Below, in pieces: positions 6,201 through 57,578 of a DNA stretch of 64,000 nucleotides (positions within the stretch are counted from its first letter, which is position 1; each line of letters begins with the position of its first letter). The stretch is taken from NCBI GenBank assembly GCA_019787685.1, contig JAHNUO010000001.1:3348001-3412000 (forward strand), in the 5' to 3' direction. Both the position numbers and the translations under genes were made by a program. The DNA comes from Chiua virens (taxonomy: Eukaryota > Basidiomycota > Agaricomycetes > Boletales > Boletaceae). Under the pieces are notes generated by a model. The model saw nothing but the letters and a program-made list of their open reading frames with translations. It did no database searches and was not told where the DNA came from.

Positions 6201-7119
6201 CTTTTTCTTGACAAAGAAGAAGGAAGAGGCCTGTGGGGAGTTAGAGGGACAAATCTTACCATTGGTGAGGTGTTCATTGATGAATTCATCAGTGGCTTTT
6301 TGTTCATCAGGGAACAAGGGATAAACTTTCCCAACCTTGGGTTGGAATGAGTCCTTGAGATGGATCTCATGGTCACAGGATCAGGATGGGAACATTTGGT
6401 TGAAGGGTTCCTTCACAAATACAGATTCGAATTCCAAGTACTCCGAAGGGAGGGTGACCTTGGCTTTGGGAGCCGCAGCTGCAAGGGAGGTGGCATTGGT
6501 TAGCTTCTTGGGTTGAGTAGTCCAAATGAAGTGTTGCCCTGCATGCATGACGTGGTTCACAGAGTGTTGCATGAAGCCTATTGTGAAGTAATAGTCATAG
6601 AGTTTTCCATCCCAGATGAGATTGATGTTGAGGTGGCAAACCAGGTGGTTCAGTGGGGATGGGCGAGTTTGGCAGAGTGGTGGGGTTCGTTGGTGGTGAT
6701 TGGAGGGAGGTCAGGTTCGGGAACGGTGATGGTGATGGTCTTAGTGACCCAGTTGATGATGGGGTTGGTCACTTTGAGCCAAGGGAGTCCAAGGATAACA
6801 TTTTCAGAACCACAGTGGATGATGTGGAACTTTACACGTTGGAGCACTCCGCCAAGAGCGATCCAGAGGGTGGTGGTGAATTTGATATCACCGTTTTTGT
6901 TCATGGTAGCGTCAACGTTCCTAACTGGGATTGGCTTCAGAAGACGCTCTTTGGGGAATGCCAGTTGATACAGTTGATCCTGGCCCCTGAGTCAATGAGG
7001 GCATGGGTGTCAACATCTTTGGAGGTAGCAGTAGCATTCAATCTAATGGGAATTTGCATATATTGAGAGGAGAGCTCAGCTACTAGTACATGGTTACGAG
7101 AATGGGAAGATACCAGCAT
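3292..7119 (-). pseudogene. pol: Element A pol: protease, RT, RNase H, integrase, chromodomain (broken)
   Basis: Reading from 7119 down: the aspartic protease shows ALIDSGA (about 7010); RT follows at 6317-5718 with the palm motif YMDN instead of YxDD; then RNase H (about 5480-5183); then the integrase zinc module, with paired His and the CTTC pair (about 4860-4730); then the catalytic core with SVDLITDLP, ISDHSLQFAS and DGETEHVNQE (4640-4270). The chromodomain lies at about 3735-3560 (FLIQWKGY, DSWEPESNL). The frame shifts several times and contains stops, so no continuous protein is made. The Asp-to-Asn change in the RT motif would itself abolish catalysis. In active relatives Pol copies the RNA and inserts the DNA, with the chromodomain guiding it to chromatin. 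Confidence 0.85.
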
Positions 7120-7149
7120 TGAATCAGTCTTCCTCCTTAAAAACCCGTG

Positions 7150-8290
7150 ACCGGAGTGGTCACTTTGTTGATGCTCATGGCGTTCTCTTCGTCGTTGTCT
7201 TCTACTTCAACGAGAGCTGGCATGGGTTCTTGTTTGGGTTCTGCTTTCCGCACCTTCTTGGAGGTAGATGTGGGAATAGTTGAAGATTTGGTTGCAAAGA
7301 CCGGGCAGGAGGACATGCAATGGCCAGGTTGTCGGCATCAGAAGCAGAGGTTGTTTTTGAAGCATCGCTTGCGCTCCGCTTCGGTCATCTTGGGGATACA
7401 GATGGTGTCTACATCCATGGTGTCAGGGTCTCACTCCTTCTTGTGAGGGGGGTTGTCATGGAAAACGACGGCAGCAGGGGGTTTCTTGTTTCGACAGGCG
7501 ATCTCGTTGGCATGCTCCTATTGGGTTTTGAAATGCATGGCTTGGGTATACCACTTGTCAATTGTGGTAGGGACCGTGTCCATGCCTTGGATGCACCTTA
7601 TGAGAGAGGGGGATAGACCAGCCACAAAGAAATTGATGAGAACAGAATCAGACCCGGTAAGGCCTGCGGTGGCGACTTTGTTGTGGAAGGAGGAGATGTA
7701 GGCAGGGACATCTTCGTTTTTGGTGATGTGGGTGGTTGAGAGCCAGGCGATTGTGTCACCCTTGGTGTCATGGTGTTTGAAGTCCTTTTGGAACTCCTGT
7801 TGCCAGTTGGCCCATGTCCCAAAGGATTGGAGCAGAATGGACTTTGTGCAGAAGGTGTCAGCCCAGGTTTTGGCTGATCCTTTGGTCATGAATGAGAGGG
7901 TGAAGGCCACTCGCTTGTTGTTCGAGTGGTAGATGGCATCATTGATGAAGAGGTAGGTGGCAACGTAGTTGAGCCAGGGTATGGCACGGTCGTAGGACCT
8001 ATCAAAGGTGGAGGGTTTTCTGAGATGAAGCTTGACTGCCTTACTAGACATGTTGCTAGACAAGGTGGTGGGGATAGGGTTTGGTGGTAGTACTGAAGGA
8101 TGGATAATGGATAGGTTTGGGTTCTAGGTTGATGGTGGTCCGGGGTTGGGTCTCCAAGGAGTAGTAGGGGTTCCTATGGAGGCAAGGGCAGGGATGTCAA
8201 GGGAGATAATGAGCCATTCAGCTAATTGCTGGGTCTCGTCGTCATAGTCAAGGTGTTTGACATTGATGTCGAGGTCTTCCTCCTGGGGTT
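7150..8290 (-). pseudogene. gag: Element A gag (broken)
   Basis: The capsid-like region is open from an ATG at 8051 to 7518 (MSSKAVKLHLRKPSTF start; typical gag helices with WADTF, WQQEFQKDF). A zinc knuckle follows at about 7370-7315, with pattern C-X2-C-X4-H-X4-C, but its X2 contains an in-frame TGA. Upstream of the ATG an acidic segment (about 8290-8105, DLDYDDETQQLAEWL) is in the same frame and separated only by a TAG near 8100, so the ancestral Gag probably began further upstream. Remnant Y (9718-10370) has the same capsid region with a different set of lesions. Gag forms the particle that packages the element's RNA. Confidence 0.8.
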
Positions 8291-16000: not shown

Positions 16001-16410
16001 TGTTACAATATCAACTTTCCATCCCTTAACAGATTACACTTTCAATTTATTCTAAAGATAACGCCTCATGTCAAGGCTGTCCAAAGGATCATACCCTATT
16101 GGCTGCCACAATATCACACACTTACACTTCTATCTATTCATTTCCCTTATCACTGACTCATCACGGCAGTGCAAGGCTATACTCTTTATCTATGACTCAT
16201 ATGCATTCACACCTTATCATCCAATAGGATACATTATGCTTATCTATGTAGTTCATACTCAGATTAGAACTCCGACATCCATGTAGTATATAAACCCCAT
16301 GAATCTAAGCCAGAGAGCTCTAACAAAGTTCTCTTGGAGTTTTCGCCTCTTCACTGGACTGAACCCCCTCTTCATCAACCACTACCACTTTAATAGTCTA
16401 GGTTGTTCTA
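16001..16410 (+). repeat. 5' LTR of element B, main part (remaining 17453-17464)
   Basis: It begins TGTTACAATATC. A TATA box (agtatataaac) is near 16288, and the predicted RNA start AACAAAGTTCT is at 16322-16332. The last 10-12 bp (taggttgtttca) lie at 17453-17464, after the TIR transposon, with TA duplicated at 16409-16410 and 17453-17454. Confidence 0.85.
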
Positions 16411-17452
16411 CAGTCGTGGATAGGCAAACTCAACTAGTTTCTTTCACGAGTTTTTGTAACACCACAACTCAATAACGTGTACCAGGAACTGTATATTCAA
16501 GGTGCTAAAAGTACATGTAAGACATCTGCATGAGCAGATTTTGAATATTCCTCAATACAACGAAATTGACCCCCAAAAATTTGGTGCATCATGAAAAAAA
16601 TAGCTAAAAATCTGGAAAAATGTGCAAACGACTGCTTCTGGTGGGAAGAGAATGATTCTGTCAAAAAGACATCAATCAGAGCTGTCGGAAAGGGGGTTAA
16701 ATAGGGGTTATGAACTCCACTGCTAGCCAAAATCAGCACTTATCATTATGCCTGGTGGCTGACCAAAGAAGAAGGTAAAAAACACAACTGGTCTGTGAAA
16801 TCAAACATGATTGTTACATTCAATTTCCAAGTTGCTTGCAACTTGGGATGACTTGGATGTTGCGCAATCCGAGACGGTAAAACACAATTCCAATCACGAC
16901 TTGGATCATATTGTTGTCACATTTGATGGGCTGAAGACTGATTATCGAGAGACATTGATTGGGTTCCAAGAATCTTGCAGCAAAAAAATAAGTGTGCATG
17001 GCAGAATGAGCACCACTTACAAACATCATGACTGATATGCATGATGCTTGTGACAGTGAGACCATCTGTGTATATCTGTCTAGTTGAGGTAATTCAACGT
17101 TTCATCAACTGATCCTTCTGGTTTATGAGTGCATACCATCTCGGTTTGAGTGGGAAGGCAGCGGAGTGGGCAGTGCATTAGCAGAAACAACACCGGTCAG
17201 TTTCACAGCAGGCGATGATGGTAATTGAGGCAGTACTCACACAATAATGTAATCCAAATGCCCAAAAGGGTATGCAACAATTTCAGAAAATTTGCCAAAA
17301 ATTTTGGCACAGCTAAAACCTCATGGGAAATATTTTGGACCACCGTTTTTAGACGTCTTTCAGCTGTCTGAGTTCAAGTTCACTGTCTGCTGGCACCAAA
17401 AAACTCAAATCCGTCCACTACAAATTTAGTTGGCTTTGCCTGTCCACAACTG
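16411..17452 (+). mobile_element. TIR DNA transposon with TA target duplication, inside B's 5' LTR
   Basis: The 1042-bp insert begins CAGTCGTGGATAGGCAAAC and its end is the imperfect inverse (ttggctttgcctgtccacaactg). It is flanked by TA on both sides, and removing it restores the LTR end seen in other copies. TA duplication points to the Tc1/mariner superfamily. On the plus strand near 17070-17250 is a decayed conserved module, VEVIQRFIN, FMSAYHLGLSGKAAEWAV, AMMVIEAVL, with in-frame stops. The same module occurs on the minus strand at 35740-35960, next to a matching terminal repeat. No DDE core is recognisable, so this copy is probably non-autonomous or deleted. Confidence 0.8.
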
Positions 17453-17466
17453 TAGGTTGTTTCATT

Positions 17467-17558: not shown

Positions 17559-18261
17559 AGTAAGTCGCAAGCTTGAAAAGTAGTTGAAACATCTGTTCCA
17601 AATAAGTCGATTTGCAAAAGACTCAAGGTCTAGCATACGCAGAAACAGATAGTGCACCCATGACCAGAAAGGAGGCCTTAACTGACCTGCCCAATCAGTG
17701 TCTATCCCACTCTCTATCGTTGCAGCAGCTCAGGAAGCTTTTCCCGGCCTCGAAGAAAAACCATATATCCTTGACACAGCATATCTCGCTGAAGTCGTTG
17801 CCCTCGAGGACCTTGATCCCGAAGACCAAACTGACACTGAAATCTTCCATGCCTTCTTAGGCCACTTCATAGGCGACACTAGCACCTTATCCGACTACTC
17901 CAGTCAGAGAGAGTCAACCCGGTCCAACAGCCCAGAACTTAGGTATCCAACCGAGGAAGTTGAGGTCAAGCGCGAATACTTTCCCACTCCCCTTCCCAAA
18001 CAAGAACCTTCCCCTTTCCCACCAGCTCCTTTGAGAGAACCATCGGAGGAAAGTTTGGGAGACCCAAATGATTGGCTCCCACCCAGAGAGATTGAGAGAA
18101 TAGCCAATAGAATGGCTGTACAACAGAGAAGAGTCCTGAGATGCTACAGGGCCAACTTAGTACCCACACACATTCAACCCTACTCACGGTACGATAACTT
18201 CAAGTTCCTATACTTTAGGCCTCAAAACACCCTTAGAACCCCTAGGAGATACACTCAGTAG
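17559..18261 (+). CDS. Element B ORF1 (187 aa), start codon made by splicing
   Basis: Exon 1 ends in A at 17559. An intron of 139 nt (17560-17698, GTAAGT to CAG, with a branch-like ttaactgac) follows, and exon 2 begins TG at 17699, so AUG exists only after splicing. The 187-aa product has an alanine-rich start (VAAAQEAF), an acidic part (ALEDLDPEDQTDTEIF), a proline-rich middle (LPKQEPSPFPPAPLREP), then NDWLPPREIER and a basic, tyrosine-rich tail. It keeps an open frame although gag and pol of this copy are broken, and is about 70% identical by eye to element C's ORF1. It ends TAG at 18259-18261, directly followed by the ATG of ORF2. No known domain is recognised. A structural or RNA-binding role is possible but unproven. 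Genomic ATGs inside it (for example where C has ACG) look like later C-to-T changes. Confidence 0.65.
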
Positions 18262-24449: not shown

Positions 24450-24864
24450 TGAAACAACCTAGAACAAATCTAGACTGTAAAGTGTAGTGGATGAAGTGAG
24501 AGGGGGTTCAGTCCAGATGAGAGGCGAAAACTCCAAGAGAACTTTGTTAGAGCTCTCTGGCTGTCATTCATGGGGTTTATATACTACATGGATATCGGAG
24601 TTCTAATCTGAGTATGAACTACGTAGATAAGCATAATGTATCCTATTGGATGATAAGGTGTGAATTGGTATGAGTCATAGATTAGAGCATAGCCTTGCAC
24701 TGCCGATGATGAGTCAGTGATAAGGGAAATGAATAGATAAGAACATGAGGTGATGGATGCTGTGTTATTGTGGCAGCCAATCGGATATGATCCTTTGGAC
24801 AGCCTTGACATGAGGCGTGTATGTTTAGAATAAGTTGAATGTAGGAGTTGAGAAGTGAGGAAAA
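24450..24864 (-). repeat. 3' LTR of element C, lacking its first 15 bases
   Basis: It matches 30874-31288 of the 5' LTR base for base by eye. The terminal segment gttggtatcgtaaca of the 5' LTR (31289-31303) has no counterpart here: after 24864 the sequence is ttctgttgatc, the end of pol. The purine run seen before B's 3' LTR is also missing. Confidence 0.88.
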
Positions 24865-27800
24865 TTCTGTTGATCGAACTCCGGATGATCTATTTCATAA
24901 TTGAGACGATGGAGATTTTCCTCATCTTCGTGTGAAGTTTTATCGTCATAGGTTTGGAACATAGAGTTAAATTTGGTTTGTGTGACTTTTAATTTTCTTG
25001 GGGCATCTGGATGTGCTTCGTGGAAATCAGATATGAGATCTGGCGCATTCTTCAGATTCTTTAGTGGTTCCCAAGTTCTTTCGTCATCATCATAACCCTT
25101 CCAGTGTATGAGATATTCTAGGCGTCGTCCTTTCATTCGGGAGTCGACAATATAATCTGCTTCGAATTCTTCTTCTCGGTCATCTCCGATTACGACAGGT
25201 CGCGGTTTGTATACCGGCTGTTCTGGTAGATGTTCCTTATAGGGTTTAACCTGAGAAATATTTACTACTGGATGTATTCGCATAGTGCGTGGGAGTCGAA
25301 GCTTTAAAGCATTCGGACCGTGCATGGATATTATGTCATAGGGGCCAATCCATTTATCCGTGAATTTTGGATGTTGTTTTATTTTTAGATTTGCTGTAGA
25401 GAGCCAGACCTTATCTCCAATTGAATACGAAGGGGGTTCTGATCTCGATCTATCTGCAATGTTTTTCATGTTTTCCGCGGCTTTATCTATATTAGATTTG
25501 GTTTGTTCTAGAACTTCGGAGAAATCCGTAATGTAGTTCTGAGCAGCCGGGTTTTTCATGGATTGTGGCATAATTCCCATTCTGGGGACGTAGGAACGTG
25601 TGATTTCGAATGGTGAGAATTTAGTGGCAGTGTGTTTCTTGCTGTTGTATGAGAATTGTGCGAGAGGAAGCCAATCGGCCCATGTGTTATCTTTCTCAGC
25701 ACAGAACATGCGAAGATACTGTTGCACTTCTCGGTTCATTCGTTCCGATTGTCCATCCGTTTGTGGGTGATGAGCAGTGCTTAATTTGGGTGTTATTTTT
25801 AATCCTGAGCATATATCTTTCATAAGTTGGGAAGCGAATTGTGGTCCTCTATCCGAAATGATGGTTTTAGGGAGGCCATGATGTTTCCATATGTGTGAGA
25901 GATATAATTTAGCGAGGTCCATGGATGTACACGTTTTGTGGCAGGGAATAAATTCGACTTCTTTAGAGAAGCGATCCACAACCGTGAGAATGGAATCATA
26001 GGAGTGTGAAAGTGGGAGATCTGTAATGAAATCTGCTGAGATATCTTCCCATGGTAATGACGGTGTTTCTAAAGGTTGCAGGAGTCCTGCTGTTTTCTGA
26101 TTAGAACCTTTGAAACGAGCGCATCTTTCACAATGTGAGACATAATTCTTGACTTCTTCGTTCATTCGAGGCCAAATGTAGGTTCGTGATAGAAGTTCTA
26201 AAGTTTTGTCATAGCCAGGATGTCCAGCTTCTGGTGTGTCATGAAACATGGTTATGGATTTGGTGCGTAAAGCGTCCGGAATGAAGATCCTATCCCCCTT
26301 TCTAAGGAAGGCGTCCTCGACTTTGTATCCGATAGAAAGTAAGTGTTTCATGGCATTAGGTGATAGTTTCATTGTTTCATGTTGTACGTCAGATAAGAAT
26401 TGATCACCATTGTATAGGAGAGTGACGGCTGATCTGATCTTAGATGGATCCATGAGAAGGATTCCTTTGTTATCATCTTCGATTCTGATCATGTGATCTT
26501 CTCGTCTGCTTAGAGCATCTGCTTTTCCCATAGTGACTCCAGCCTTGTGGTGCCAAGTGAAGTTAAAGCGTGATAGATATTGAGCCCATCTCGCTTGTCT
26601 TCGGTTAAGATCTTGGCGTGTCATAAACCACGTAAGGTTCTGATGGTCATTCCATATTTCGAATTCGTGTTTTGCACCCTCAAGATAGTGGCGCCATAGT
26701 TCTAGAGAGCGGATAACCGAAAGCATTTCTTTGTCGGCTATAGGGTAATTCCGTTCTTCTGGTGTCATAGAGTGGCTATTGTAAGCGACGGGGTGCCAAA
26801 GTCCTTCTTTTTCTAAAGATAGAACTGCTCCTGTGGCGAAATCCGATGAATCGCATTCTAGGCGATATTTGGCATTCTGATCCGGATAAGCAAGGATAGG
26901 GGCTGTCGTAAAAGCCTTTTTAAGCATAGTGAATGCTTCGTCACAAGTGAAGGTCCATTCGAATTTCTGATCCCTTTTAGTAAGGTCGTGTAAAGGTCGT
27001 GCTATTTTTCCATAATCTTTAATGAATCTGCGATAGAAGTTGGCAAGTCCGAGGAAACTTCTGATGTGTTTGACTGATGTGGGAGTTGGCCATTCAGCTA
27101 CTGCTTTGGTCTTTTCGTTATCCATTTTAATCCCATCAGTTCCCACGATCATTCCAAGGAAGTCCACTTCTTTTACGCGGAAGAAGCATTTTTCTGGTTT
27201 TACGTATAGATCGTTATCTTCAAGGCGTTTAAGCACTTCAAGTACAATTTTATCATGAGTTTCATAATCGTCGGTGTTCGTGAAGATCATAAGGTCATCG
27301 ATGTAAACGACAACGACGCCATTCATATCGGCAAAGATTTCATTCATCATAGTTTGAAACGTTGCTGGTGAGTTGCATAATCCAAAGTACATGACGATTG
27401 GTTCGAAAGAACCTCGGTGGCAGACAAAGGCTGCTTTCCATTCATCGCCTTCTTTGATGCGTACGTTATTGTATCCCCATCGGAGATCCATTTTTGTAAA
27501 AAGCTTAGCGTCTTTTAATTTATCCACAAGCTGCGAAATGAGCGGCAAGGGGTAGTTATTCTTAGTCGTATGTTCGTTTAGGTATCGGTAATCCTGAACC
27601 ATGCGCTTCTTTCCATCTTTCTTTGGGACGAAGAAGACCGGAGATGTCTGTTCGGACTTAGAGGGTCTGATGTAACCTTTCTTTAATTGGTCATCAATAA
27701 ATGCGGAGACCTCCTCTTGTTCTGTGACAGAGAGGGGTATTAAGCGACCCTTCTTGGGAACGAACGACTCTTTTAGGTCAATGTGGTGATCCCATGGTTT

Positions 27801-28660
27801 GCGTAATGGTATTCTTTCAGATTCCGTTTTTCCAAATACTTTTGCATATTTTAAATATTCTCGTGGGACCATCTCTTCAAGAGTGCGTTCCTTAGGAGGA
27901 GAAGGTGGAGTTTCCATGTTTGCAGTAAAAATACGAGATTCCGCGATAGAGTTTGCATATTTAAGTTCTTCTTCGATAATGGAATCCAAGAAATCGTCTT
28001 CTTCTTGAGAATGACATGATTCGGGACATCTCCGCATCACAACTGATCCTGTAGACCAATCAATATGGGGATTGTGGTGCTTTAACCATGTATATCCGAG
28101 GATAAGGTCGTTCTTTCCAAGGTTGGTAATTTCGGCATCCACTATTTCCCTGTGTCCTTTGTAATCAATCAGGATTTGTGTGGCGTGAGTAATAGAACCC
28201 GCTTGATTCTTGGTTCCGTCGACATTAAAAACTTGTATGGCGTGTGGCAGCGCGTGTGTGGGGAGTTTATGTTTAGCGACGTAATTTTCGTGTATGAAGA
28301 TCGCGTTAGCTCCACTATCAAGAAGCGCTTTTGCTCCGACATAACCAATTTGGTTTACTGGGGATACCAAAATTGGTAATACTATTTCTTTTTCTACCGA
28401 TGTAGATCTAATGAAAGACCCATTGGGGATTTGTTTTGGGACAGAATTAAGCACGGAACTATCGTGTCCGCCGCGCTCTGCAGAGACGCTGTCAACGCTT
28501 TCGTTTTCTGTTGTTTTTGGTGATTTAGGTAGTTTATCCTCTTGCCGGGGAGGTGTTTCTGAGTAAGCAAAATCAAACTTTAAAGAAACGGTGTTTTCAT
28601 ATGATTTCGGAAGGGTGGCGCGAACGTGAGATCCCAGTTTACTCAGTTCGCCTTGCCTTT
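24825..28660 (-). CDS. pol: Element C Pol: protease, RT, RNase H, integrase, chromodomain
   Basis: The frame is open from within gag (-1 frame) to the stop at 24825-24827. Numbering from the Leu-Asn-Ser segment at 28454: aspartic protease LLDSGA at 44-49; RT with YIDD at 384-387; RNase H D535, E576, D603; integrase zinc module H738, H745, C775, C778; catalytic triad D808, D868, E904, the last two 35 residues apart (DD35E); GPY/F-like segment near 1035-1060; chromodomain 1097-1153 (LEYLIHWKGYDDDERTWEP). No stop or frameshift is present, and all catalytic residues are there. There is no ATG in the right place (28454 is GTG), so it is expected as a Gag-Pol fusion by frameshifting. The last residues (FNLF) are encoded inside the 3' LTR. 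Pol would mature Gag, copy the RNA and integrate the DNA, the chromodomain probably binding modified histone tails. Confidence 0.93.
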
Positions 28661-29815
28661 TCCCTTCTTTTCGGTTTCGTACTTGTCGTAATAAAACGCT
28701 TGTACTTCTTCAGGAGTCATTCCTCGGATGGCCGCGAAGGGGTCCTTATCCGGGACTGAAGAAGTTGAGGCCTTAGGGGTTTCTTTTTGAGATGTGGATC
28801 TCGCTTTTCGAGTTTTGCCACATGAGGCTTTGTGGTTGCCGGCGTAGTATTTGCACTCCGGGCATTGTACTTTGGGTTTAGGGCAATCCCTAGGATAGTG
28901 ACCCTTTTCTCCGCAGTTGAAGCACTTGTTGTTGGGGTTGGCCTTCTTTTGACCAAATGCCCTTACTTCTTTGCCGGTGAACCAGCCATCTTCATCTTGT
29001 TCGTATGTCACAGCCCCTATGTCCATTGCATTGGGGTCCTTCTGTTTCCAGTTCCTTTCTCCTCGGACATAGTTGATTGACTCGAAGGAGTTACCTGCCG
29101 TGCGAATTGCAGCAAGGTATTTGGTGACTGCTTGGTTGCGGTCGGAAATGAAGGAAGGATGTGAAGAGTTTGTATAGATCGGATCATTCGGATCTTGCCG
29201 TTGTCCGTCCTTGAAAATTTGGAATATGATGCTTCTGGCGGCATTCGTTTCCAGAAGCCTTATGGCATGTGTGGGATCGATCTGTGCTTGCTGCCACAGA
29301 TTTTCCCAGCGGACTATGAAGTCTTCAACCCTCATGTTACCCTGTTTCAGGTTTTCCAATTGGGTACGAGCCCAGTCTACTTTATTGTTTTGTCGGAACA
29401 TTCCTTCTATGTCCACGACCAATTGTGCCCATGTGAGTTTAGAACCTTGAGCTAATCTTGTCTCGGCGAATTGCGAGCTTTTTGCTCCTTTGAGACGTGA
29501 GAGTACGGCGAGTACCGCGTGATGTGAGTCAGGGGCGATAGCCCTCTGATTGATGTCGAGCCATCCTTTCATCTTAGCCCACCATTCTTCGAATTTGGTT
29601 TGGTCTCCGTCATAGAGACCGGGGTCTGCGAATATTTCGACTTTTGATGAGGTGGCTGCTGGTGCTGCTGCTCCAGCATTGATCTTGTTTTCTAGCGTGG
29701 CAACTACATTTGTCAATTCTTGGACCAGCCAAGCCGATGCCGTGAGACGATCTCCATCGTTCAACGATTGGTTGTTTAGATCTTTAAGGGCGGTGGCGTA
29801 GGTGTATCCTGACAT
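28643..29815 (-). CDS. gag: Element C Gag (390 aa)
   Basis: ATG at 29815-29813, two bases after the ORF2 stop. The capsid-like region has W-rich helices (FEEWWAKMKGWLDI near 75-88; GMFRQNNKVDWARTQLENL near 138-156). A perfect zinc knuckle C-X2-C-X4-H-X4-C lies at 298-311 (CFNCGEKGHYPRDC), followed by a second cysteine/histidine cluster, C318, C321, H328, C332. The C-terminus is lysine-rich (EKKGKGKAN), and its codons form the frameshift site. Gag assembles particles around the element RNA, and the knuckles bind RNA. It is intact, whereas B's gag is broken. It is probably the third protein read from the leader, after ORF1 and ORF2. Confidence 0.93.
   Translation of the reverse strand: MSGYTYATALKDLNNQSLNDGDRLTASAWLVQELTNVVATLENKINAGAAAPAATSSKVEIFADPGLYDGDQTKFEEWWAKMKGWLDINQRAIAPDSHHAVLAVLSRLKGAKSSQFAETRLAQGSKLTWAQLVVDIEGMFRQNNKVDWARTQLENLKQGNMRVEDFIVRWENLWQQAQIDPTHAIRLLETNAARSIIFQIFKDGQRQDPNDPIYTNSSHPSFISDRNQAVTKYLAAIRTAGNSFESINYVRGERNWKQKDPNAMDIGAVTYEQDEDGWFTGKEVRAFGQKKANPNNKCFNCGEKGHYPRDCPKPKVQCPECKYYAGNHKASCGKTRKARSTSQKETPKASTSSVPDKDPFAAIRGMTPEEVQAFYYDKYETEKKGKGKAN
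28658..28664 (-). promoter_or_regulatory. Putative -1 ribosomal frameshift heptamer G GGA AAA
   Basis: On the minus strand GGGAAAA sits five codons before the gag stop, with the zero-frame split G|GGA|AAA required for tandem slippage. The -1 frame downstream is pol and is open across the overlap. The same heptamer in the same frame is at 19691-19697 in element B. A downstream structure was not assessed. Confidence 0.7.
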
Positions 29816-29817
29816 AT

Positions 29818-30063
29818 TTACCAGGCGTCAGATGCAGGTTCTGGTGCTCCCCAAGCGTTAGCGGTGGCTGTTCCGTATTCTTCGTAGGGTGAGAAAAGAC
29901 CGAATGTGACTGCAAAAGGGTAGTCTCGTCGTTTGATAGAGACGTAAATTGGGCGTTGTGATTCTTGTACCTTGTTTGTAAGGTAGAATGCGATGTAGCC
30001 GAAATAGAAAGTGGTTATTGTGCAGGAGATAATGAGGGCGATAGCTACGAGTTCCCAAGACAT
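29818..30063 (-). CDS. Element C ORF2: 81-aa single-span membrane protein upstream of gag
   Basis: ATG at 30063-30061; stop TAA at 29820-29818, two bases before the gag ATG. Residues 5-28 are hydrophobic (VAIALIISCTITTFYFGYIAF), consistent with one transmembrane helix. The rest is polar, with tyrosines and the motif NAWGAP near the end. Element B has an 81-codon counterpart in the same place, with a hydrophobic N-terminus and NAWGAP, although the sequences otherwise differ greatly. No homology to known envelope proteins is seen, and env genes of Ty3/gypsy elements lie after pol, not before gag. Role unknown: membrane targeting of particles, or a viroporin-like function, would be guesses. It is the first AUG on the unspliced transcript. 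Confidence 0.75.
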   Translation of the reverse strand: MSWELVAIALIISCTITTFYFGYIAFYLTNKVQESQRPIYVSIKRRDYPFAVTFGLFSPYEEYGTATANAWGAPEPASDAW

Positions 30064-30077: not shown

Positions 30078-30775
30078 CTAAAGGTAGCGAGAAGGGATCC
30101 TGAGAGTGTTTCTAGGACGTAGGGATGGGAATTCTCGGTTATCGTACTGCGAGTATGGACGTATACGAGAGGGTACTCGGTTAGCTTTGTAGCGTCTGAG
30201 TATTCTTTTTCTCTCTAGGTCAGTCCTAGCGTTCCTCCTTTCAATTTCTCTGGGTGGGAGCCAGTCGTTAGGGTCTCCGAAACTTTCCTCAGAGGGCTCT
30301 CTTAATGGAGCAGGTGGGAATGGGGACGGTTCTCTTTTGGGAAGGGGAGCGGGAAAATATTCGCGCTTAACTTCTACTTCCTCAGTGGGATACCGTAATT
30401 CCGGGCTGTCGGACCGGGTTGACTCTCTGGTGGTTGAGTAGTCTGGGAGCGATGAATCGTCTCCTAAAAAGTGGCCTAATAGGGCGTGAAATATCTCTGT
30501 GTCGGTTCTGTCCTCGGGATCTAAATCCTCTAAGGCGACGACTTCTGCAAGGTAGGCGGCGTCGAAGACGTAGGGTTCGTCAACGAGATCAGGGAAGGCT
30601 TCCTGAGCGGCGGCGATAGCAGAGAGAGGGAGGTTGGACACTATTTTTGTGGTCTCAGTTAAGAGGACAATGAGCGTCAAGGGATGCGCTATCGACTCCT
30701 GCGCTATATGGACCTTTGGTCTCGAGCGGCTTCTGAAGAGGATATAATCTTCCGTTCAAAGGGTTGCGACTTACT
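30078..30775 (-). CDS. Element C ORF1 (187 aa), start codon made by splicing
   Basis: The frame 30638-30078 is open but has no ATG, and none lies between the predicted RNA start and 30064 in any frame. Exon 1 ends in A at 30775. The intron 30774-30641 (134 nt, GTAAGT to TAG, branch-like ttaactgag) joins it to TG at 30640-30639, giving AUG followed by SNLPLSAIAAAQEAF. The protein is acidic (ALEDLDPEDRTDTEIF), then proline-rich (LPKREPSPFPPAPLREP), then NDWLPPREIER, with an arginine-rich tail (KRILRRYKANRVPSRIRPY). Element B has the same intron position, the same assembled AUG and the same length. No known domain is recognised. The basic tail could bind RNA and the proline-rich part could recruit partners. 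The stop TAG at 30080-30078 lies 14 nt before the ORF2 ATG. Confidence 0.8.
30641..30774 (-). other. Intron in the leader of element C
   Basis: Donor GTAAGT (30774-30769), acceptor aaaaatag (ending 30641), branch-like ttaactgag 17-25 nt before the acceptor. The corresponding intron in element B is 17560-17698. Its removal joins A to TG and creates the only start codon for ORF1. Confidence 0.75.
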
Positions 30776-30860
30776 CTGTGCGCTTGTTCCTCTTGTTTAG
30801 TGGTAAGACGGCTACGACGAGGTCGAGGGACTTGACAGTAGTATCGACGGCGAAGAAAGC

Positions 30861-30871
30861 AACAAAGTTCT
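30861..30871 (-). promoter_or_regulatory. Element C self-priming primer-binding site
   Basis: Minus strand AGAACTTTGTT, two bases inside the LTR edge, perfectly complementary to AACAAAGTTCT at 30972-30962. It is the same in element B. No tRNA primer match starting with TGG is present. Confidence 0.72.
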
Positions 30872-30873
30872 AA

Positions 30874-31303
30874 TGAAACAACCTAGAACAAATCTAGACT
30901 GTAAAGTGTAGTGGATGAAGTGAGAGGGGGTTCAGTCCAGATGAGAGGCGAAAACTCCAAGAGAACTTTGTTAGAGCTCTCTGGCTGTCATTCATGGGGT
31001 TTATATACTACATGGATATCGGAGTTCTAATCTGAGTATGAACTACGTAGATAAGCATAATGTATCCTATTGGATGATAAGGTGTGAATTGGTATGAGTC
31101 ATAGATTAGAGCATAGCCTTGCACTGCCGATGATGAGTCAGTGATAAGGGAAATGAATAGATAAGAACATGAGGTGATGGATGCTGTGTTATTGTGGCAG
31201 CCAATCGGATATGATCCTTTGGACAGCCTTGACATGAGGCGTGTATGTTTAGAATAAGTTGAATGTAGGAGTTGAGAAGTGAGGAAAAGTTGGTATCGTA
31301 ACA
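30874..31303 (-). repeat. 5' LTR of element C (promoter LTR)
   Basis: A 430-bp LTR, TGTTACGATACC to GGTTGTTTCA. The TATA box TATATAAA is at 31007-31000, and the predicted RNA start AACAAAGTTCT at 30972 lies 35 nt from the start of that box. Two ATGs just after the TATA box precede this predicted start and would not be in the RNA. Confidence 0.9.
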
Positions 31304-34154: not shown

Positions 34155-34495
34155 GTTTCAGCAAAGATTTCATTCATCATGGTTTGGAACATTGCTTGGG
34201 AATTGCATAGTCCAAAGAACATTACAACAGGTTTATAGGAGCCATGGTGACAGGTGAAAGTGGCCTTCCATTCATCTCCTTTGATTCTCACATTGTTATA
34301 GCCCCATTGAAAATTCATTTTTTTTGAATAATTTAGAATTCTTGAGCTTGTCAACAAGCTGGGAAATGAGCAAAAAGGGGTAATTGTTCTCAATGATATG
34401 TTTGTTTATATAATAGTAATCCTGTATCATTTGCTTCTTTCCATCTTTCTGGGGAATGAAGAACACAGGAGACATTTGAGGGGACTTAGAAGGAC
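34155..34495 (-). pseudogene. Ty3/gypsy reverse transcriptase fragment
   Basis: On the minus strand: [38 protein letters not shown], then after a +1 shift QWGYNNVRIKGDEWKATF and FFGLCNSQAMFQTMMNEIF. This corresponds to residues about 270-375 of element C's Pol and lacks the YxDD motif. It is bounded by the LTR fragment on one side and the minisatellite on the other. Confidence 0.8.
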
Positions 34496-35375
34496 TATCA
34501 CTTTTGTACAAACTAGGCACCACCCTCTTTGTGCATATCAGGTGGGACATGGAATTAGTTGTGTACAAACCAGGCTGTGCCCTCTTTGTACATATTATAT
34601 GTATGTTGCAAGAAAAACTATAAGTTGTGTTGCCCTCTTTGTGCATGTAAGGTTCAACACAATAGCTATCTGTTATGTACAAACCAGGCATTGTCCTCTT
34701 TGTACATCCCAGATCAGCCATAGGAAACAATATATTTTGTACAAATCAGACCATGGAAAACTATCAGTTGTGTACAAACCAGGCATTACCCTCTTTGTAC
34801 ATACCAGATAAGCCATGGGAAATCATATATTGTGTACAAATCAGGCACCGCCCTATTTGTGCATGTCAGGTGGGACATGGAACGCTATTAGTTATGTACA
34901 AACCAGGCATTGCCCTCTTTGTGCATATCAGGTGGATTGTGGAACACTGTCAGTTGTGTACAAACCAGGCATTGCCCTCTTTGTGCATGTAAGGTTCAAC
35001 ACAAAAACTATTAGTTGTGTACAAATAAGGCATTGCCCTCTTTGTGCATATCAGGTGGATTGTGAAACACTATCAATTGTGTACAAACCAGACATTGCCC
35101 TCTTTGTGCATGTAAGGTTTGACACAAAAACTATTAATTGTGTACAAACTAGGCACTACCTTTTTTGTACATGTAAGGTAGGACATGGGACACTATCAGT
35201 TGTGTACAAACCAGGCATTACCCTTTTTGTGCATGTAATATTTGTGCATGTAAGGTTTGACACAAAAACTATCAGTTATGTATAAACCAGGTCTTGCCCT
35301 TTTTGTACATGACACATGAGAGATAGGAAACCATCAGTTGTGTACAAACCAGGCTGTGCCCTCTTTGTGCATGCT
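34496..35375. repeat. Minisatellite, about 62-bp unit, about 14 copies
   Basis: The unit contains tgtgtacaaaccaggcat followed by tgccctctttgtgcat and a variable spacer. Clear steps are at 34896, 34958, 35019 and 35081 (61-62 bp). Each unit holds near-inverted arms TGTACAAA and TTTGTGCA/TTTGTACA about 14 bp apart, which could fold into a hairpin. The long plus-strand frames through it (YKPGIALFVH, VQTRHCPLC repeats) follow from the repeat and are not taken as genes. Confidence 0.8.
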
Positions 35376-35556
35376 ACATGGCAACTTGCTATTCCTGGAC
35401 CTCAAAAAAGGTCCAGGTGTGTTGTTCAAAACTGTTGCTTATCTTGACCCTTAAAAGGAAACTATTCAGTTTCATCAGCATGGGTGTGGCATGCTCCATG
35501 GCATGATCCAGCTACAATAACAACTGAATAGATTATGTAATATGTGTCTTACTGTA

Positions 35557-36916: not shown

Positions 36917-39259
36917 ATGTCTCAGCCCACAGAAACTGACTCACTCCCTGGGCACTTAGGGGATCTGGATTGGAACAACGACCAATTCTGGGCTGTGGAC
37001 GACATCAACTTGGAGATTGACCAGCTGATCTCAGAGATGTTGGAGACGGAGAAGGCCAACTTCAATAGCAGACATACTGGTAAGTATTGTCCTTGCAGAT
37101 CCCATTATATTGACCTTCTTTTTGCTAGTCTACACATTCATCAATGAGTATGCTCCCGATGTTCACCCGCCAACCAGGAATCTGAGTCTACTGGATGAGC
37201 CTGAGCCAACTCGGAAGGTTACCGAATCTGAGAAACCATGCTCCAGGAAATGAAAAGAGAGGCCTGCCAGTGACCCAGACATAGATTCGGAATCGCAAAA
37301 GACCATAAAGCAAGGATGACCCAAGAAGGTAGCCAACTTGAAGGCTGATGCGCTCGTCGACAAGGAGAACACACCGAAAGCAATATCAGTTACTGCCTAC
37401 CTTCATCTCAAAATGGTGACCACACAGCCTGCACGTGGTTGCAATAAGCCTGCTACAACAGTCACAAAGGCCGTGCAGTGTCCTCTGTTCATCTTTGCTT
37501 CTGACAGCAAATTTGAAACCTTTGTTCAAGCAGTTGCTGATACTGCAGGTATATACCTCTCTTCGTCAACTGACACTGTCATGGCTGCGTTGGAAGTTCG
37601 AGATGCCAGTGAATCTCACATTGAAGGTTCTCTCAAACAAAGTTGGGTATCAGGCCATGCTTGATGCTGCAGTTGAGCGCACAAAGGGCCATACCATTTT
37701 TTTATTCTTACCGAAGCCCATTAGTGCTGAGCCGGTAAGGACTAATAGTAAAATTTTCAATATATGTGGCTACCAATTTTCACAGGATGCAATCATGATC
37801 TCTCGCCATGGCCATGAAGATGATGATGATGCATATAGTCACGGTGGCTCTGAAGTCTGAGAACTCTCCCACAAGGAGAAGATCATAAGTTGGCAAATTC
37901 GTTGATCTGATACTCATGCACCATCACTTGTGATAGGATCAGCTTCAAAATAAATTTTCTGCAGAGTGGAAGCAGCTTGAGGACAAGTTTCCAGTCGGAA
38001 ACCATGTCCTATTTCCAAACAAGTGCATATATGCAAAGGATGGATTGTTTTGGGAGCTCACATTGCTCTGCCTTGATATTTGGGCTGCTGCAATTGTATG
38101 TATCACTTCATCTGACTTCGACACTTACTTGCATTCAAGTTCTAACCTTGATGTTGTGTGATGCAGCCCCATCAACTTGCTATGTTCGATGATCCACCCA
38201 TGTCAAACATGTTTACCAAGTCACATGTGATCAAACCCACTCGGCCAGGTCCCTATGCCTCTCCTGAGTTGCAGGTGGCTTATAACTGTTATCTCCAAGG
38301 CCGTGACTATGTGGGACCTCCTGTCACAGTGCAACAGAACACGACAGGACTTCCTGTCCAACAAAATGCGACAGTGCCTTCCATGGCTCTGATGATGGCT
38401 GGTGTGCCTGGACTGCCTGGACCATATCACTTCCCCCCCAGATATCCACCATTCTATCCACCTGCACAAGCACCACCGTACTACCCACCACCACTGCCAT
38501 ATCCATATCCATACTACTCAGGTTTCCCTCTGCAACCACTTCCAAACACCCCTCCTTCTGGCCCAGGGCCTATGTATGTACGTCCTCTGAACGAGATGCC
38601 GTCACCAAGTGCGACCATGAAGCATAATGTATCCCTTGAAGAGTTTTGCAAGATGTATAATATACCTTCATCAGACCAAGAGAAGCTTTCTATCCTCGAG
38701 TATACACCCGGAAATCAGGTTATCGAATCCCTCTTGGACAGAGACTGGGCTGCCATTTGTTACGATACCGACTTTTCCTTCCTTAATGGATTCTACCTTC
38801 AATCAATTCTAAAGATAATGCCTCATGTCAAGGCTGTCCAAAGGAACATACCCTATTGGCTGCCACAATATCACACACCTACACTTCTATCTATTCATCT
38901 CCCTTATCGCTGACTCATAAGAAGCAGTACAAGGCTATGCTCTTATCTATGACTCATACCAATTCACACCTTATCATCCAATAGGATACAGTATGCTTAT
39001 CTACGTAGTTCATACTCAGATTAGAACTCTGACATCCATGTAGTATATAAACCCCATGAATCTAAGCCAGAGAGCTCTAACAAAGTTCTCTTGGAGTTTT
39101 CGCCTCTTCACTGGACTGAACCCCCTCTTCACTCAACCACTACATTTTAACAGTCTAGGTTGTTTCACCATTGGTTTCAGTGTGGTTGGTTGGTGTACTT
39201 TCCTTTCCTATCATCGTAAATTTTGTAAAATGATTGTTGCACCGGATCCAAAGATGTGA
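36917..39259 (+). pseudogene. Uncharacterised host-type gene with Pro/Tyr-rich linker, split by a solo LTR
   Basis: ATG at 36917 starts an acidic exon (DLDWNNDQFWAVDD). A 5' splice site GTAAGT follows at 37080, and the frame resumes near 37130. TGA codons at 37251-37253 and 37317-37319 interrupt it where arginine is expected. A conserved block IFASDSKFETFVQAVADTAG lies at 37491-37550. At 38158-38757 a Pro/Tyr-rich stretch (PPRYPPFYPPAQAPPYYPPP) leads into VSLEEFCKMYNI, LEYTPGNQVIESL and DRDWAAI. The solo LTR 38758-39167 then interrupts, and coding resumes as GFSVVGWCTFLSYHRKF, ending at 39257-39259. I know similar SLEEFC-type C-termini from multi-copy Agaricomycete proteins of unknown function. 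Confidence 0.55.
38758..39167 (+). repeat. Solo LTR of the B/C family
   Basis: 410 bp, TGTTACGATACC to GGTTGTTTCA, with TATA box and AACAAAGTTCT RNA start. A perfect 5-bp duplication ccatt lies at 38753-38757 and 39168-39172. Removing it rejoins the coding sequence on both sides in frame. Confidence 0.9.
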
Positions 39260-52016: not shown

Positions 52017-53372
52017 TTGATCATGATTCATCGACGACAGGACATTTTGGTCGGGAGGCTCGGGAAACTGGAAATCGAAAGAGCAGTCCCCTCTCGGACC
52101 TTTCCTAGGACGTTGAAACTGTTGAGCTGGAACAAGATTCTCAATATGATTGAAGCCCAGCCCGAGCACATTCGTCGCATAATCCAGGAAGCAGCACGGG
52201 AGAAGGATCACAGACAATCAAGGCTGACAAGCATCATTCAAAAGAGGGTTGCCGATATAGGGGAATACTGTGATGAAGGATCAGTGTCAGGAAATGGTGC
52301 TGAAGAAGCCAGAAACAACATACGAGACTGTGACATGGATAATGCGGTGGTAATGGAGGAAGATACAGGACTGACAGGCATCTGTGAAGATGGACAAACA
52401 TACAAAACATGAACATGTTCCAATTTCATGGAATTGCCCTCGGAAGCGGATAGCAAGGCTTGTTATCGTGCATTCATTGATGCAACTTGTAACAACTCTC
52501 TGTCACATTCAATCTGTGTCATTTGTGCATGGGAACTGTGGAGTTTGGAAGGTAAGTTACAGATCACATACACGTATAGCAGTTGAAGTAGTATTTTCCA
52601 ATAAAAAGGTTCAGATCAAATTATTCAAGCCATACCAAATGTCCATCGTTTGCAACCAACGATGTCACATCCTTCATATCGTCTGTGGAATGGGTTATTG
52701 GTCTTGGAAGAATATATCGATGGAGAAGGAACAGACGCACAGGGTTAGGTATGTGACGAATGCGCACAAGCTCTGCAGTCCGATTCAATGCCAAAATTCG
52801 CACTTGCAAACAACTTGTGGATTGGCCATGTCCCTCACGAATTATCAGTTCTTACCCTGCCAGAACAACTCTTGATATCTCGTCATTATCCTCGCTGTTA
52901 CATTGTAAAGCTTTATCCTTGCGATGGTCACGTTTCGAATCCAACTCATTTGCAGCGAGCCATGGTCGGGAACGTTACACTGTATAACATGAACACAAAT
53001 GCAATCTGCGACATGTTGGAGGGCCAGTTACTGCCGCAACCTGCCATACAGTTAGCATCTGTATTAGCCATCATGTATATCGGGAGCAAGAAGTTGCCAA
53101 AGCTATGGCTGAAATCAACATTCCGAGTTCGTCATCGAATCATTTATGAAGCCCTTGTCTGGCTGAAGCAAAATAATGCCATGTATGAAGATATTGTTAT
53201 TTCACGAGATCATCTCAAGTTATTGCCAGAAGATGATGTACCAGTGGAAATCTCGGCAGCTATTCAACATGAAGAGGACGAAGATGTAGGAATTCAGGAG
53301 CGGTCAGGATATGTTCCTACCGACAGAATCGATGATCAGAGTGAGTTGAAATACACTTGGTGTTCGGTTTAG
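52017..53372 (+). pseudogene. Helitron N-terminal region (cysteine cluster and DUF6570-like)
   Basis: 52017-52412 encodes a basic and then acidic segment. 52424-52540, in another frame, has ACYRAFIDATCNNSLSHS followed by CVICAWELW, the cysteine pair found at the start of fungal Helitron proteins. 52788-53372 is an open frame with PKFALANNLWIGHVP, LTLPEQLLISRHYPRCYI, GNVTLYNMNTNAICDMLEG, FRVRHRIIYEALVWLK and LPEDDVPVEI, which I recognise as the DUF6570-type region preceding Rep. Frame changes between the pieces may be introns or decay. Confidence 0.65.
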
Positions 53373-53566
53373 CAAGTTAAATACGAGTCAGATCCAATAT
53401 TATCAGGAGATGACTCAGAGGAAGTACCAATGTTTGACTCTGAAAACGAAGATCAAAATATGAATGGTCAGTGAACATGTGATATAAATTAATCAGTGGC
53501 GCATATTAAAGCACCTGACTTGTAGGTTCAACTCGTTTTTCGTCACCATCCACTGGTTCAGATGAT

Positions 53567-55370
53567 ATGGAGTTTGATGAAACTGATACCAACGATGCCA
53601 GTGGGATGGTTATTCCAATGCAATATCTTGGAGTGATGGACGTCGATCTCAATAATGTTTCATTGGATGAAAGGATGAAATATGCACTTGCAAGCATACA
53701 CGACTCAGACTCAGAGGGAGGTTATGCTGTTAGGCATGGTCATCAACCATTGTCTGAATTTGGAAAGGGTTATAGAGGCCAACCTGATCCTAAACAGAAT
53801 CCATTGGCAGCAGCCTTCCCCATGTTGTTTCCATATGGAATAGGAGGCATCGAAGGAAGATGAGAACGTACAATTGGGTTCGATGAACACGTTCGATGGG
53901 CATTACAATATCATGACTGGCGATTTCGAGTGCACCATTCCTTTCCCTTTGTTTGTTTCAGTATCTCACAGAAGAGAGATGCATTACGATCGGCTTGCAT
54001 ACAGATGAATCATCGTGATTTTGAACGTGATGCTCTCACCATTAGCTCACTGACTGTTGCGGATCTGAAACAAGCCGAGAAAGAAGAAGCCTCACAAATG
54101 CTGATATCAAATCCACGTGTCAAGTTGTTGTGCAAACACATTTTTACCTCTAATGCACGAGTCAAAGGCTCAGACAAGATGCAGGCATCTTACCAAGGTC
54201 AAATATGGGGAACATGCTTACGATTGCATGGACCATCACTCTGGGTTACTATCAATCCATGTGATATTCATGACCCCATACTTCAAGTATTTGTGGGGGA
54301 AGAAATCGATATGGACAAATTCAATAATGAACTCGGCCCTGATAGCTTGCATCGCGCATCTAATGTTGCTCGTGACCCATATGCCGCTGCAAAATATTTC
54401 TTCTTCATCATCCATACCATTCTTCACACTCTGTTTGGCATCAAAGCAACAAACAACCAAGTACATTCGTGGATGGGTTTACTTGGTTGTCTCACAGCGT
54501 ATTTTGGAGTGGTAGAGGCACAAGGACACAGATCTTTGCACGTCCATATGCTCTTATGGCTTCAGGATGCACCTAATGCCAAGGAAATGCATCACCTCCT
54601 GGGTACACCTGAATTTCGCCATCGCGTGTGTCAATTTATCTAGAAGAATATCCAAGCCGACATTGAAGGTCTTGACGAAGAAGGCTTAAAAACCATGCCA
54701 CGTGAAACGCAGCTAGCATATTCACGTCCTCCTGATCCAGATCAAGCATGTTGGGAAGGATCGTCTTCATCATGTCGTCAGATCTCAGCAGGTCCATACC
54801 TGTACTTGCCCCACTTGCCTCCGTTATGACAAGCATGGTCATCTTGTTTGCAAACGGCGTGCACCATGGGAGGTTTCTTGTTCTCATGGAGTCAATTCAG
54901 ATGGAACATACAAGGTTCGACACACCTATGGATATGTCAACAACTTCTGTCCTCCGATCTCTGTGACCACATGTTGCAACAACAATATCAAGCTGATCTC
55001 AAATGGGGCCGATACAAAGCATATAATGTGGTATTTGACAGGTTATCAGTCGAAGAAACAAGGGAAGAATTTCAACATTTCAGCTTTGATGTCAAAGTCA
55101 CTGCTCTACCATGAGAGCCACATTAATCATCTTGACGAGATTCTGGAACGGAACTACTTGTTGATATTTCGTTGTCAACTGTCGATCAACCGTGAAATGG
55201 AGATGTTAGCACCACAGGTGATCGCATATCTCATGCAATGGGGTGATCATATATGTTTACATTGTTATGTGCCACTTTATTGGTCGTCCGTTCAAGGTCG
55301 ATTACAAACTGTCTTTGGTGAACTCAGTGTACAACCAGACAGGTTTGTTCTCCAAATTCTTACTTGAGTC
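53567..55370 (+). pseudogene. Helitron Rep (HUH nuclease) region
   Basis: After an acidic lead (53567-53860) a TGA at 53861-53863 interrupts the Helitron-like N domain. It continues as ERTIGFDEHVRWALQYHDW and the long frame 53930-54643 (GQIWGTCLRLHGPSLWVTIN, EEIDMDKFNNELGP). The HUH motif is visible as GHRSLHVHMLLW (about 54524-54560). The tyrosine motif, YLTGYQSKKQGKN, lies near 55030-55070, two tyrosines three residues apart with following lysines. These residues nick and join single-stranded DNA in rolling-circle transposition. Frameshifts at about 54643 and 54960 and a stop (TAG at 54641-54643) show that the protein is not made. Confidence 0.75.
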
Positions 55371-55559
55371 AACATGGGCTTACTGGAAGATTCTAAAATC
55401 TGTACAAAGTGATTTCTCCAAGCAAACACCGAATGATGACATTGCCAGTGGCCAGAGAGTTGGACTTGGACGAATTCACGATACTAACTTGGAGGACTCT
55501 GAGGTTTGTATTGCAATGTCAAATCATGAGATTTTGATATTTAAATAGAGCTGAAACAG

Positions 55560-57578
55560 GACTTTCAAGTTATATCTATTGCTGCTCGTAACGATGGACA
55601 TCTCTATGCCCGATCTCAAATTGAAGATTATATCCTCCAGGGAGAAGAAATGGAAGATTATTCTTTCTTTTCATTTATCGTCGATACATACGAGGAACAG
55701 ATACCAAAACACAAGGATTGTTTGCGGAACGACGAACAAGGAACCTCACAGGGAGCAGCCTCTGCCCCAGGCCATCCGAGTCGAGGACGAAGTTGTAATA
55801 TGCATAGCCATTACCTTTCTAGTCATCCAAAATCTCAAACGCATCACCGAGTTGTTTGTTCACCAGGACATAACACACTTCCGGATGTCATCGGACCATT
55901 TTTTCCAAACCCGAAAGATGAAAGTGTGCAGGAGCTGTACTTTGCCTCGATGTTGGCTCTGCTTCGACCTTGGCGAGACTTGCAACAAATCAAACATCAA
56001 GATGAGAGCTTTCACGAAGCATTTGAGACCTTCATATCATCCGCTACTCAAGAAGATCTGGATATCATGAGCGGAATCCAGTATTATCATGACTGCAGAA
56101 ATGCAGCCAGCTTTCATCAGGAGGTTGAAGAACATCAACAGGAATTAGCAGATATTGAAAGGCGGAATGTTCGTGACAAATATACAAACATCACCTCCGG
56201 GATCGAAAGTGACGAAGCTGAACAAGTCGGAGATACTAGCAGCCCAGACATTCAATTGACAGAGGCTAATCTGAAGTTGTATGAAGAGTCTTGCAAGAAC
56301 CAACGTGAAGAGCACCATGCCTTGCTTGCGGTCTCCATTGCTTGCACCAATGGAATCATTACCAAATCAACCACTGGCGTGTGGCAATGTCATGATCTAA
56401 ACTCTGATGTTGTCATTGCTCAGGGGGATGACTACATGAAACTACACTTGTGGCAAGATGCTATGCAGTTTGTTGTTGCTCAACTCGATAGAGAAAGTGA
56501 AGAAGCTAATGATTGGCAAGGAAAGGAATTAGAGGGACTCGGAGACGTCTCCTGAATGGAAGAAGTAGGAGAGAATGTTGAGAGTGGAGTGAAGATGGAA
56601 GGTCAAGTCGAAACATTGTCCTCCTTGATTTCAACAGTCGAGGATCACCTCACTTCAATAAATGTGGAAGATTTATTTCCTGAGCAACGTTGAGCCTATG
56701 ACATCATTGAATGGCATTTGGTCAAGACATTGACAGGGAAGGACCCGGATCAACTCATGATGATCATACCAGGGGAGGGTGGTGTTGGAAAATCAAAGAC
56801 AATTCAGTGTATCACCGAGAATTTCCGGCGATGGGGAGCAATCCATATGCTGGCCAAGAGCGCCTATACAGGAATTGCAGCATCTATCATTGATGGAAAG
56901 ACACTGCACATAGTCAGCCAGATTCCACTCAATGGCCAAGCTCGATCATGCAAAGCAAACCAGAAACTTGCAACCTTCTGGCAAGATAGGCAATATCTCA
57001 TTATTGATGAGAAATCCATGGTATCATGCAAGTTTCTTGCTCGGATTTCGGCATCCCTTTCCATTGCGAAGAGTCTTGCAGACGTCCCACACTCTAATCG
57101 ACCTTTCAGAGGTGTTAATGTGATTTTGGTTGGGGACTTCCATCAATTTCCGCCTGTGATAGGACAACCACTTTATTGGCCCATAAATCCCGTTAAAGAT
57201 GATGCCAAGGAATTACTTGGGCGGTCTATATATGAACAGTTCCAGACCGTCGTTCGTTTGACAAGACAGGTCCGTGTTGTCAATGCCGAATGGCTCGACC
57301 TGCTCCAACACATGCAACACGGAAATTGTCGAGTTCATCATATTGAGATGCTGCGTTCTCTCGTACTTACGAATCCACGCTGTCCTTCCATTGATTTCTC
57401 AACTCCTCCTTGGAACAATTGTGTTCTAATCACACCTTGTCACTCGAAACAGTACACGGACCACAGCATTAGCAAAGAAATGTTACATTTAGAACGTCTT
57501 TACCACGGCTGCAGTTTTTGCACAGCCGCAATTGTCCCCCCCCCCAGTGACCTTGTAAACAAGGTAACATGGCTCTAG
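55560..57578 (+). pseudogene. Helitron middle region and PIF1-type helicase, truncated
   Basis: 55650-56555 encodes the linker between Rep and helicase (DVIGPFFPNPKDESVQELYF, LALLRPWRDLQQIK). After a short gap the helicase frame 56718-57578 has Walker A GEGGVGKSKT (about 56775), Walker B YLIIDEKSM (about 56997), motif III VGDFHQFPPV (about 57130) and motif IV VRLTRQVR (about 57253). It stops at 57578 after a C-rich segment, before motifs V and VI. The enzyme unwinds DNA during transposition; this copy lacks the residues needed for full ATPase coupling. Confidence 0.8.

Follow-up and report, generated by a model that had tools for sequence, protein, structure and literature searches.

A retrotransposon family of the bolete Chiua virens seems to make its first protein, ORF1, only from RNA in which splicing has brought together the two parts of the start codon, A and TG, which an intron in the leader keeps apart in the DNA. 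The arrangement was recognised in two elements, B and C, of the window (the whole 64,000 nt stretch of contig JAHNUO010000001.1 analysed here), and conservation at the sequence level confirmed the split start codon as a real feature of the whole family, beyond what would be expected by chance. In LTR elements, a single RNA serves as both genome and messenger; here the start codon itself apparently embodies the choice between the two roles, with an AUG for ORF1 on the spliced RNA only, and with about 900 nt of the unspliced RNA apparently cleared of AUGs so that Gag stays reachable. Since ORF1 has no genomic ATG, it represents a class of genes that is missed by searches for genomic ATG codons, and the presence of about 100 conserved copies in one genome makes the proposal directly testable.

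A predicted intron splits the ORF1 start codon

The sequence-only reading had placed the end of exon 1 of element C at A30775, directly before a GTAAGT donor, and the start of exon 2 at TG (30640-30639), after an AG ending at 30641; in element B it had the A at 17559, again before a GTAAGT donor, and the TG at 17699-17700, after an AG acceptor. All these bases were found as described, and either junction would open an ORF1 of 187 aa (Table 1). The claim that C has no other ATG for this protein was borne out as well, with no Met inside ORF1 and none of the three frames containing an ATG. In the genomic DNA, both elements read GTG at the split.

Two ORF1 searches of the genome (one genome, 48.3 Mb in 136 contigs) returned 151 and 152 matches, with approximately 40 of the 151 either lacking the N-terminus or left out of the copy set. 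The set of 100 distinct copies was drawn from 106 places, after removal of L001 (which is element C of the window), L041 (the same as L007), three duplicates and one partial copy. A GTAAGT donor and an AG/TG acceptor at the correct spacing were present in 98 of the 100 copies, which do not count as independent events because they share ancestry. Of these 98 copies, 97 have an A and one has a C directly before the donor; the acceptor triplet is TAG in 50, CAG in 47 and AAG in one. Relative to the projected ORF1 start, 94 copies are in frame with the A and one is in frame with the C before the donor, and three (L050, L051 and L043) are offset, with donor and acceptor kept. Among the 98 copies that carry both sites, there are 97 in which removal of a GT-AG intron would place TG next to a first coding exon of one base, the A of the start codon. 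No ATG was found in the open frame upstream of the ORF1 start in any of the 100 copies. Intron lengths, compared in 61 copies (drawn from 67, without L081, L031, L088 and three with no ORF2 readable within 20 nt), are spread over all three values modulo 3 (22, 22 and 17), with the frame after the TG kept. The usual base before a 5′ splice donor is G; the A found here departs from this, but is what an AUG requires.

We consider it improbable that ORF1 is instead translated from RNA that keeps the intron, with the conserved GUG in its frame, or some other near-cognate codon, as the start, and with the intron-like sites as an inherited part of the leader. A genomic GTG is present at the split in every copy that keeps AG/TG, and ORF I of rice tungro bacilliform virus (RTBV) gives a precedent, with an AUU start before AUG-free ORFs (PMC5902531); however, the GTG arises automatically from an AG acceptor placed before TG, and a GUG start leaves unexplained the GTAAGT donor with its preceding A (97/98), which relatives retain despite extensive change in the rest of their leader.

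Distant relatives and exceptional loci

The split start codon is retained by most of the distant ORF1s, which are 41–49% identical to that of C. Eleven further short loci, distant or partial relatives read by eye, comprised seven with A/GTAAG and AG/TG, two with A/GTTAAGT, one with AG/TA and one that has lost its 5′ part to an inserted repeat. Variant sites were found in L110 (C before the donor), L101 (AG/TA), L098 and L100 (A/GTTAAGT) and L102 (GTAAGC), and L106 has neither the family leader nor an in-frame ATG adjoining ORF1. Several loci were considered as counterexamples and rejected: L055 carries a nested LTR element inside its intron, and the donor half was found in L028; in L096/L123, a high-copy repeat ends around ORF1 codon 21, with an in-frame ATG near the break and an internal stop; L050 has both donor and acceptor, with an offset frame; and L051 and L043 both keep A/GTAAGT and AG/TG. 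Pattern searches for relatives elsewhere gave no match in viral contigs and two matches in bacterial and archaeal contigs, neither of which was confirmed.

ORF1 and ORF2 are under selection

The pattern of substitutions marks ORF1 and ORF2 as real genes, and indicates that ORF1 is under strong purifying selection. Median dN/dS, taken over pairs with dS between 0.03 and 1, was 0.125 for ORF1 (920 of 1830 pairs), and 0.106 and 0.069 for the two types of ORF2 (349/351 and 221/300 pairs), with a median dS of 0.47–0.66 in these comparisons. Not a single Met was present in the 11,327 ORF1 codons of the 61 copies. ORF1 of C has no Pfam match and that of B has a sub-threshold match only (DUF5491, E 0.0039), and searches of the protein collection found no ORF1 relatives with a single sequence (at E 0.001) or with an alignment (at E 1, among 7993 candidates scored). 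The protein has an acidic and proline-rich front and a basic end, and all seven aligned ORF1s, including those of 41–49% identity, contain V/I-K-x-E at positions 90–93 of the C protein (30360-30371), which we take to resemble a sumoylation motif. ORF2 is predicted to be a small membrane-like protein, with a mean hydropathy over 19 residues of its hydrophobic start of 1.9 (81-aa type) or 2.9 (89-aa type). These two types (compared in 29818-30063 of C and in L003 and L010) have the hydrophobic start in common and a similar tail, and the type of ORF2 is independent of the type of leader, which suggests exchange between subfamilies.

The selection on ORF1 bears on the idea that the intron is spliced mainly for RNA export or translation, with its place in the start codon incidental and ORF1 an unimportant product. 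Introns in the 5′ leader are common in genes, and both RNAs could yield ORF2 and Gag through leaky scanning, but ORF1 is under strong purifying selection and A/TG is kept exactly, and we regard such an incidental intron as very unlikely.

Organisation of elements C and B

Element C, in which splicing would create the ORF1 start codon, is a Tf1/sushi-type chromovirus, and is called young because its two LTRs are identical over 415 bp (Table 1). The RNA start at AACAAAGTTCT is predicted from the position of the TATA box (31007-31001); the self-primer located there is complementary to the primer binding site AGAACTTTGTT at 11 of 11 bases, and 87 of 100 copies have both motifs ahead of ORF1. The intron contains a branch-like TTAAC at 30662-30658. 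The pol frame is −1 relative to gag, and GGGAAAA occurs where the two overlap; residues 1182-1231 of Pol match the chromodomain PF00385 (E 3.6e-15). The named best Pol matches were mostly basidiomycete proteins (Pisolithus, Lyophyllum, Agaricus bisporus, Ustilago), and included one record labelled as bacterium, on a 5.4-kb contig. At the 3′ end of C (24840-24900), the LTR is without the first bases present in the 5′ LTR, the purine-rich stretch that precedes the 3′ LTR of B is missing, and the pol frame continues into the LTR.

The conserved AGTAAGTCGCAA is near the LTR and has the same bases in B and C, but it is barely credible that it serves for primer binding rather than as a donor: the end of the LTR is about 100 nt away on the 5′ side, with the perfect 11-nt self-priming site just after it, and the two together rule out a tRNA primer site; moreover, the bases following GTAAGT vary (TCG, TCC, TTG, TCA). 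The complement of AGTAAGTCGCAA has 49 exact matches in the genome; among 13 of these that lie outside the set examined first, 10 hold ORF1 copies, L045 has a leader without an acceptor nearby, and both the self-primer and the primer binding site are missing upstream in L044 and L048.

Element B is an older, damaged relative of C, and is not an intact unit because about 1 kb of unrelated sequence (about 16412-17453) interrupts its 5′ LTR near the end. Elsewhere in the window, a further LTR of the family (38756-39167, 84–90% identical to that of B) is apparently solo, a unit of about 62 bases is repeated in tandem at 34495-35391 (13 copies listed), and 3292-8123 on the minus strand contains a further gypsy-like element, which is decayed and has a gag-like frame of its own, as judged by eye from the open frames. 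We take the long open frames at 52375-57578 (plus strand) to resemble a Helitron-type element with a Pif1-like helicase.

Table 1. Features of elements C and B in the window.
Feature	Position	Strand	Remarks
5′ LTR of C	30874..31303	-	Family matches start at 31303; 31288-30874 identical to the 3′ LTR
TATA-like box of C	31001..31007	-	Read from the sequence
Predicted RNA start and self-primer AACAAAGTTCT of C	30962..30972	-	Exact reverse complement of the primer binding site
Primer binding site AGAACTTTGTT of C	30861..30871	-	2 bases past the LTR end
Exon 1 of C	30775..30972	-	198 nt, no ATG; final base is the A of the start codon
Intron of C	30641..30774	-	GTAAGT donor 30774-30769; TAG acceptor (AG 30642-30641)
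ORF1 of C	30078..30640	-	187 aa including A30775; stop TAG 30080-30078
ORF2 of C	29818..30063	-	81 aa, N-terminal hydrophobic stretch; AUG with T at −3
gag of C	28643..29815	-	Retrotrans_gag (PF03732) and zinc knuckle; AUG with A at −3
GGGAAAA in gag-pol overlap of C	28658..28664	-	Candidate −1 frameshift site; putative function
pol frame of C	24825..28709	-	Protease, RT, RNase H, integrase, SH3_Tf2-1, chromodomain
3′ LTR of C	24450..24864	-	First bases and preceding stretch missing compared with B
5′ LTR part of B	16001..16410	+	Last bases lie beyond the insert of about 1 kb
Intron of B	17560..17698	+	A17559 before, TG 17699-17700 after; GTAAGT 17560-17565, AG 17697-17698
ORF1 of B	17699..18261	+	187 aa including A17559

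The unspliced leader is nearly free of start codons

Start codons appear to have been cleared from the genomic leader, which has none in C and is nearly free of them in the rest of the family, where few are left. The 909 nt of C from the RNA start to the ORF2 AUG contain no ATG versus 11 CAT, used as strand-matched control, an absence of only moderate rarity for C alone (dinucleotide shuffles were also ATG-free in 28 of 3000 cases, and synonymous shuffles of its ORF1 in 460 of 3000). From the RNA start to the ORF1 stop, the 61 copies contain 46 ATG versus 612 CAT, and out-of-frame ATGs in their ORF1s number 42, versus 120 expected from synonymous shuffles; the stretch after ORF2 (mean 275 nt) has 7.8 ATG per copy. 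When aligned, the ATGs occupy 17 positions, with seven common to at least three copies and none common to at least 10, and the CATs occupy 58 positions, with 21 common to at least 10 copies. Of 67 exon 1 sequences, 66 contain no ATG; the remaining one is over-long, and its limits are probably wrong. In the spliced form the split AUG is the first AUG in all 61 copies, and in the unspliced form that of ORF2 is first in 31; the other 30 have an earlier ATG, the first being located in the ORF1 stretch (26) or in the intron (4). ORF2 has no internal ATG in 38 of the 61 copies and internal ATGs in 23. The AUG-free leader is incomplete in the older, partly decayed group, because, of the nine distant loci for which RNA start and donor were both found, four carry an ATG in exon 1 and eight carry one in the intron.

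The first ATG past the ORF1 stop follows within 0–17 nt in 66 of 67 copies. The AUG of ORF2 has a weak context, with T at −3 in 60 of 61 copies, and the AUG that comes next, beyond the ORF2 stop, has a strong one, with a purine at −3 in 53 of 54; the split AUG of ORF1 itself has C at −3 in 57 of 61. This succession of a weak and a strong AUG is consistent with leaky scanning that reaches Gag. In the basidiomycete Cryptococcus, leakiness is described for AUGs in which −3 is occupied by U, an unfavourable base (PMC7049704).

Proposed expression of ORF1, ORF2 and Gag

The conserved sites, the missing other start codons, the selection on ORF1 and ORF2 and the AUG contexts were all read from the sequence, and from these we propose that spliced RNA is the probable source of ORF1, and that ribosomes reach the starts of ORF2 and Gag by scanning through ORF1. 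Transcription would start at AACAAAGTTCT in the 5′ LTR, and part of the RNA would be spliced between the donor, which lies past the primer binding site, and an acceptor 130–152 nt further on; this would join A to TG, creating the first AUG of the spliced RNA and opening ORF1 (about 187 aa). On the unspliced genomic RNA, ORF1 would be part of a long, nearly AUG-free leader, through which ribosomes would scan to the weak AUG of ORF2, and leakage past this codon would bring them to the better AUG of gag. The unspliced RNA would yield some ORF2 and mainly Gag, and the spliced RNA would yield ORF1 and possibly ORF2 and Gag by leakage; Gag-Pol would probably be produced via −1 frameshifting, and the intron-bearing RNA would be the one that is copied. 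We hold it to be highly likely that this scheme is correct as a whole, with a self-primed chromovirus family that expresses ORF1 after splicing and relies on scanning for ORF2 and Gag.

The sequence-only reading had gone further, proposing a simple switch in which ORF1 is made from spliced RNA and never from the genomic RNA. The first part of this stands as an expectation, because ORF1 has no genomic ATG of its own, splicing would make one, and the arrangement is conserved, including in diverged subfamilies. An exclusive switch between spliced and unspliced RNA is only one possibility; with ORF1 nearly AUG-free and C at −3 of its start codon, the spliced RNA could serve for ORF2 and Gag too, by leakage of ribosomes.

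Genomic copies retain the intron

No intron-less copy was found among the 100 genomic copies. Two spliced-junction patterns gave 0 and 0 matches in the genome, a weak null result because the patterns cover only some of the exon 2 variants, and donor patterns of like length gave 36 and 43 matches. The self-primer and primer binding site are both located in exon 1 and would survive splicing, so priming alone would not exclude the spliced RNA, and the intron is tied to packaging only indirectly. We infer that a packaging signal may be located inside the intron; alternatively, too little spliced RNA may be made to leave intron-less copies. The intron RNA of C folds no better than its shuffles (z −0.79). 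Representative introns, which were chosen for the presence of splice sites and in which the invariance of these sites is by construction, share a short block containing AAGGTC besides the splice signals. At 30700-30725 in the intron of C, the block reads GACC-AAA-GGTC and could form a small hairpin; the block is recognisable across diverged introns, and is a candidate signal on the unspliced RNA.

A broader proposal is one that we would sooner doubt than accept, namely that RNA is sorted at the start codon: the intron would also mark the genome, the spliced RNA would add a Met-free accessory protein, and ORF1 and ORF2 would form a retrovirus-like accessory set that arose independently before gag and is combined with leaky scanning as in pararetroviruses.

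Comparison with known systems

A literature search that most subscription journals lay outside found no earlier description of a retrotransposon in which splicing creates a start codon. The family resembles Tf1/sushi chromoviruses in the chromodomain and SH3_Tf2-1 of its Pol, its 11-nt self-primer and primer binding site and its candidate −1 frameshift site; in this group, self-priming by the RNA 5′ end is common, and Gag-Pol production by −1 frameshifting is usual outside the fission yeasts (PMC10085805). Unlike these elements, the family has two extra genes before gag, a predicted leader intron, a start codon that splicing would assemble and an AUG-poor leader of 900 nt. An extra ORF of unknown function upstream of gag-pol is described for ORF0 of Retrosat2 in plants, which shares its location upstream of gag with ORF1 but belongs to a plant lineage, with no split start codon seen in the accessible portion of the report (PMC3485330). 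In BARE1 and copia, splicing also divides the RNA of one LTR element into pools with different products, but it favours Gag by removing or frameshifting pol, and leaves the start codon untouched as far as the available text of the source goes (PMC3735527).

The working of the family is similar to that of RTBV and the badnaviruses, for which the source describes long ORFs that lack internal AUGs, later ORFs reached by leaky scanning (across 900 nt in RTBV), and one further ORF made from spliced RNA (PMC5902531); C likewise has no AUG in the 909 nt before ORF2, and an intermediate AUG with a weak context. In the same text, the first ORF of RTBV starts at AUU, and splicing joins a uORF in the leader to a distal ORF, unlike in the family described here; RTBV is a plant pararetrovirus, and the likeness is one of working, with membership not implied. 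The split itself has a counterpart in Yarrowia, where 47 genes are listed with a first coding exon of a single base, the A of the start codon (PMC2911113); these are host genes of an ascomycete yeast, with no mobile element involved, but their A/TG is divided in the same manner as that of ORF1.
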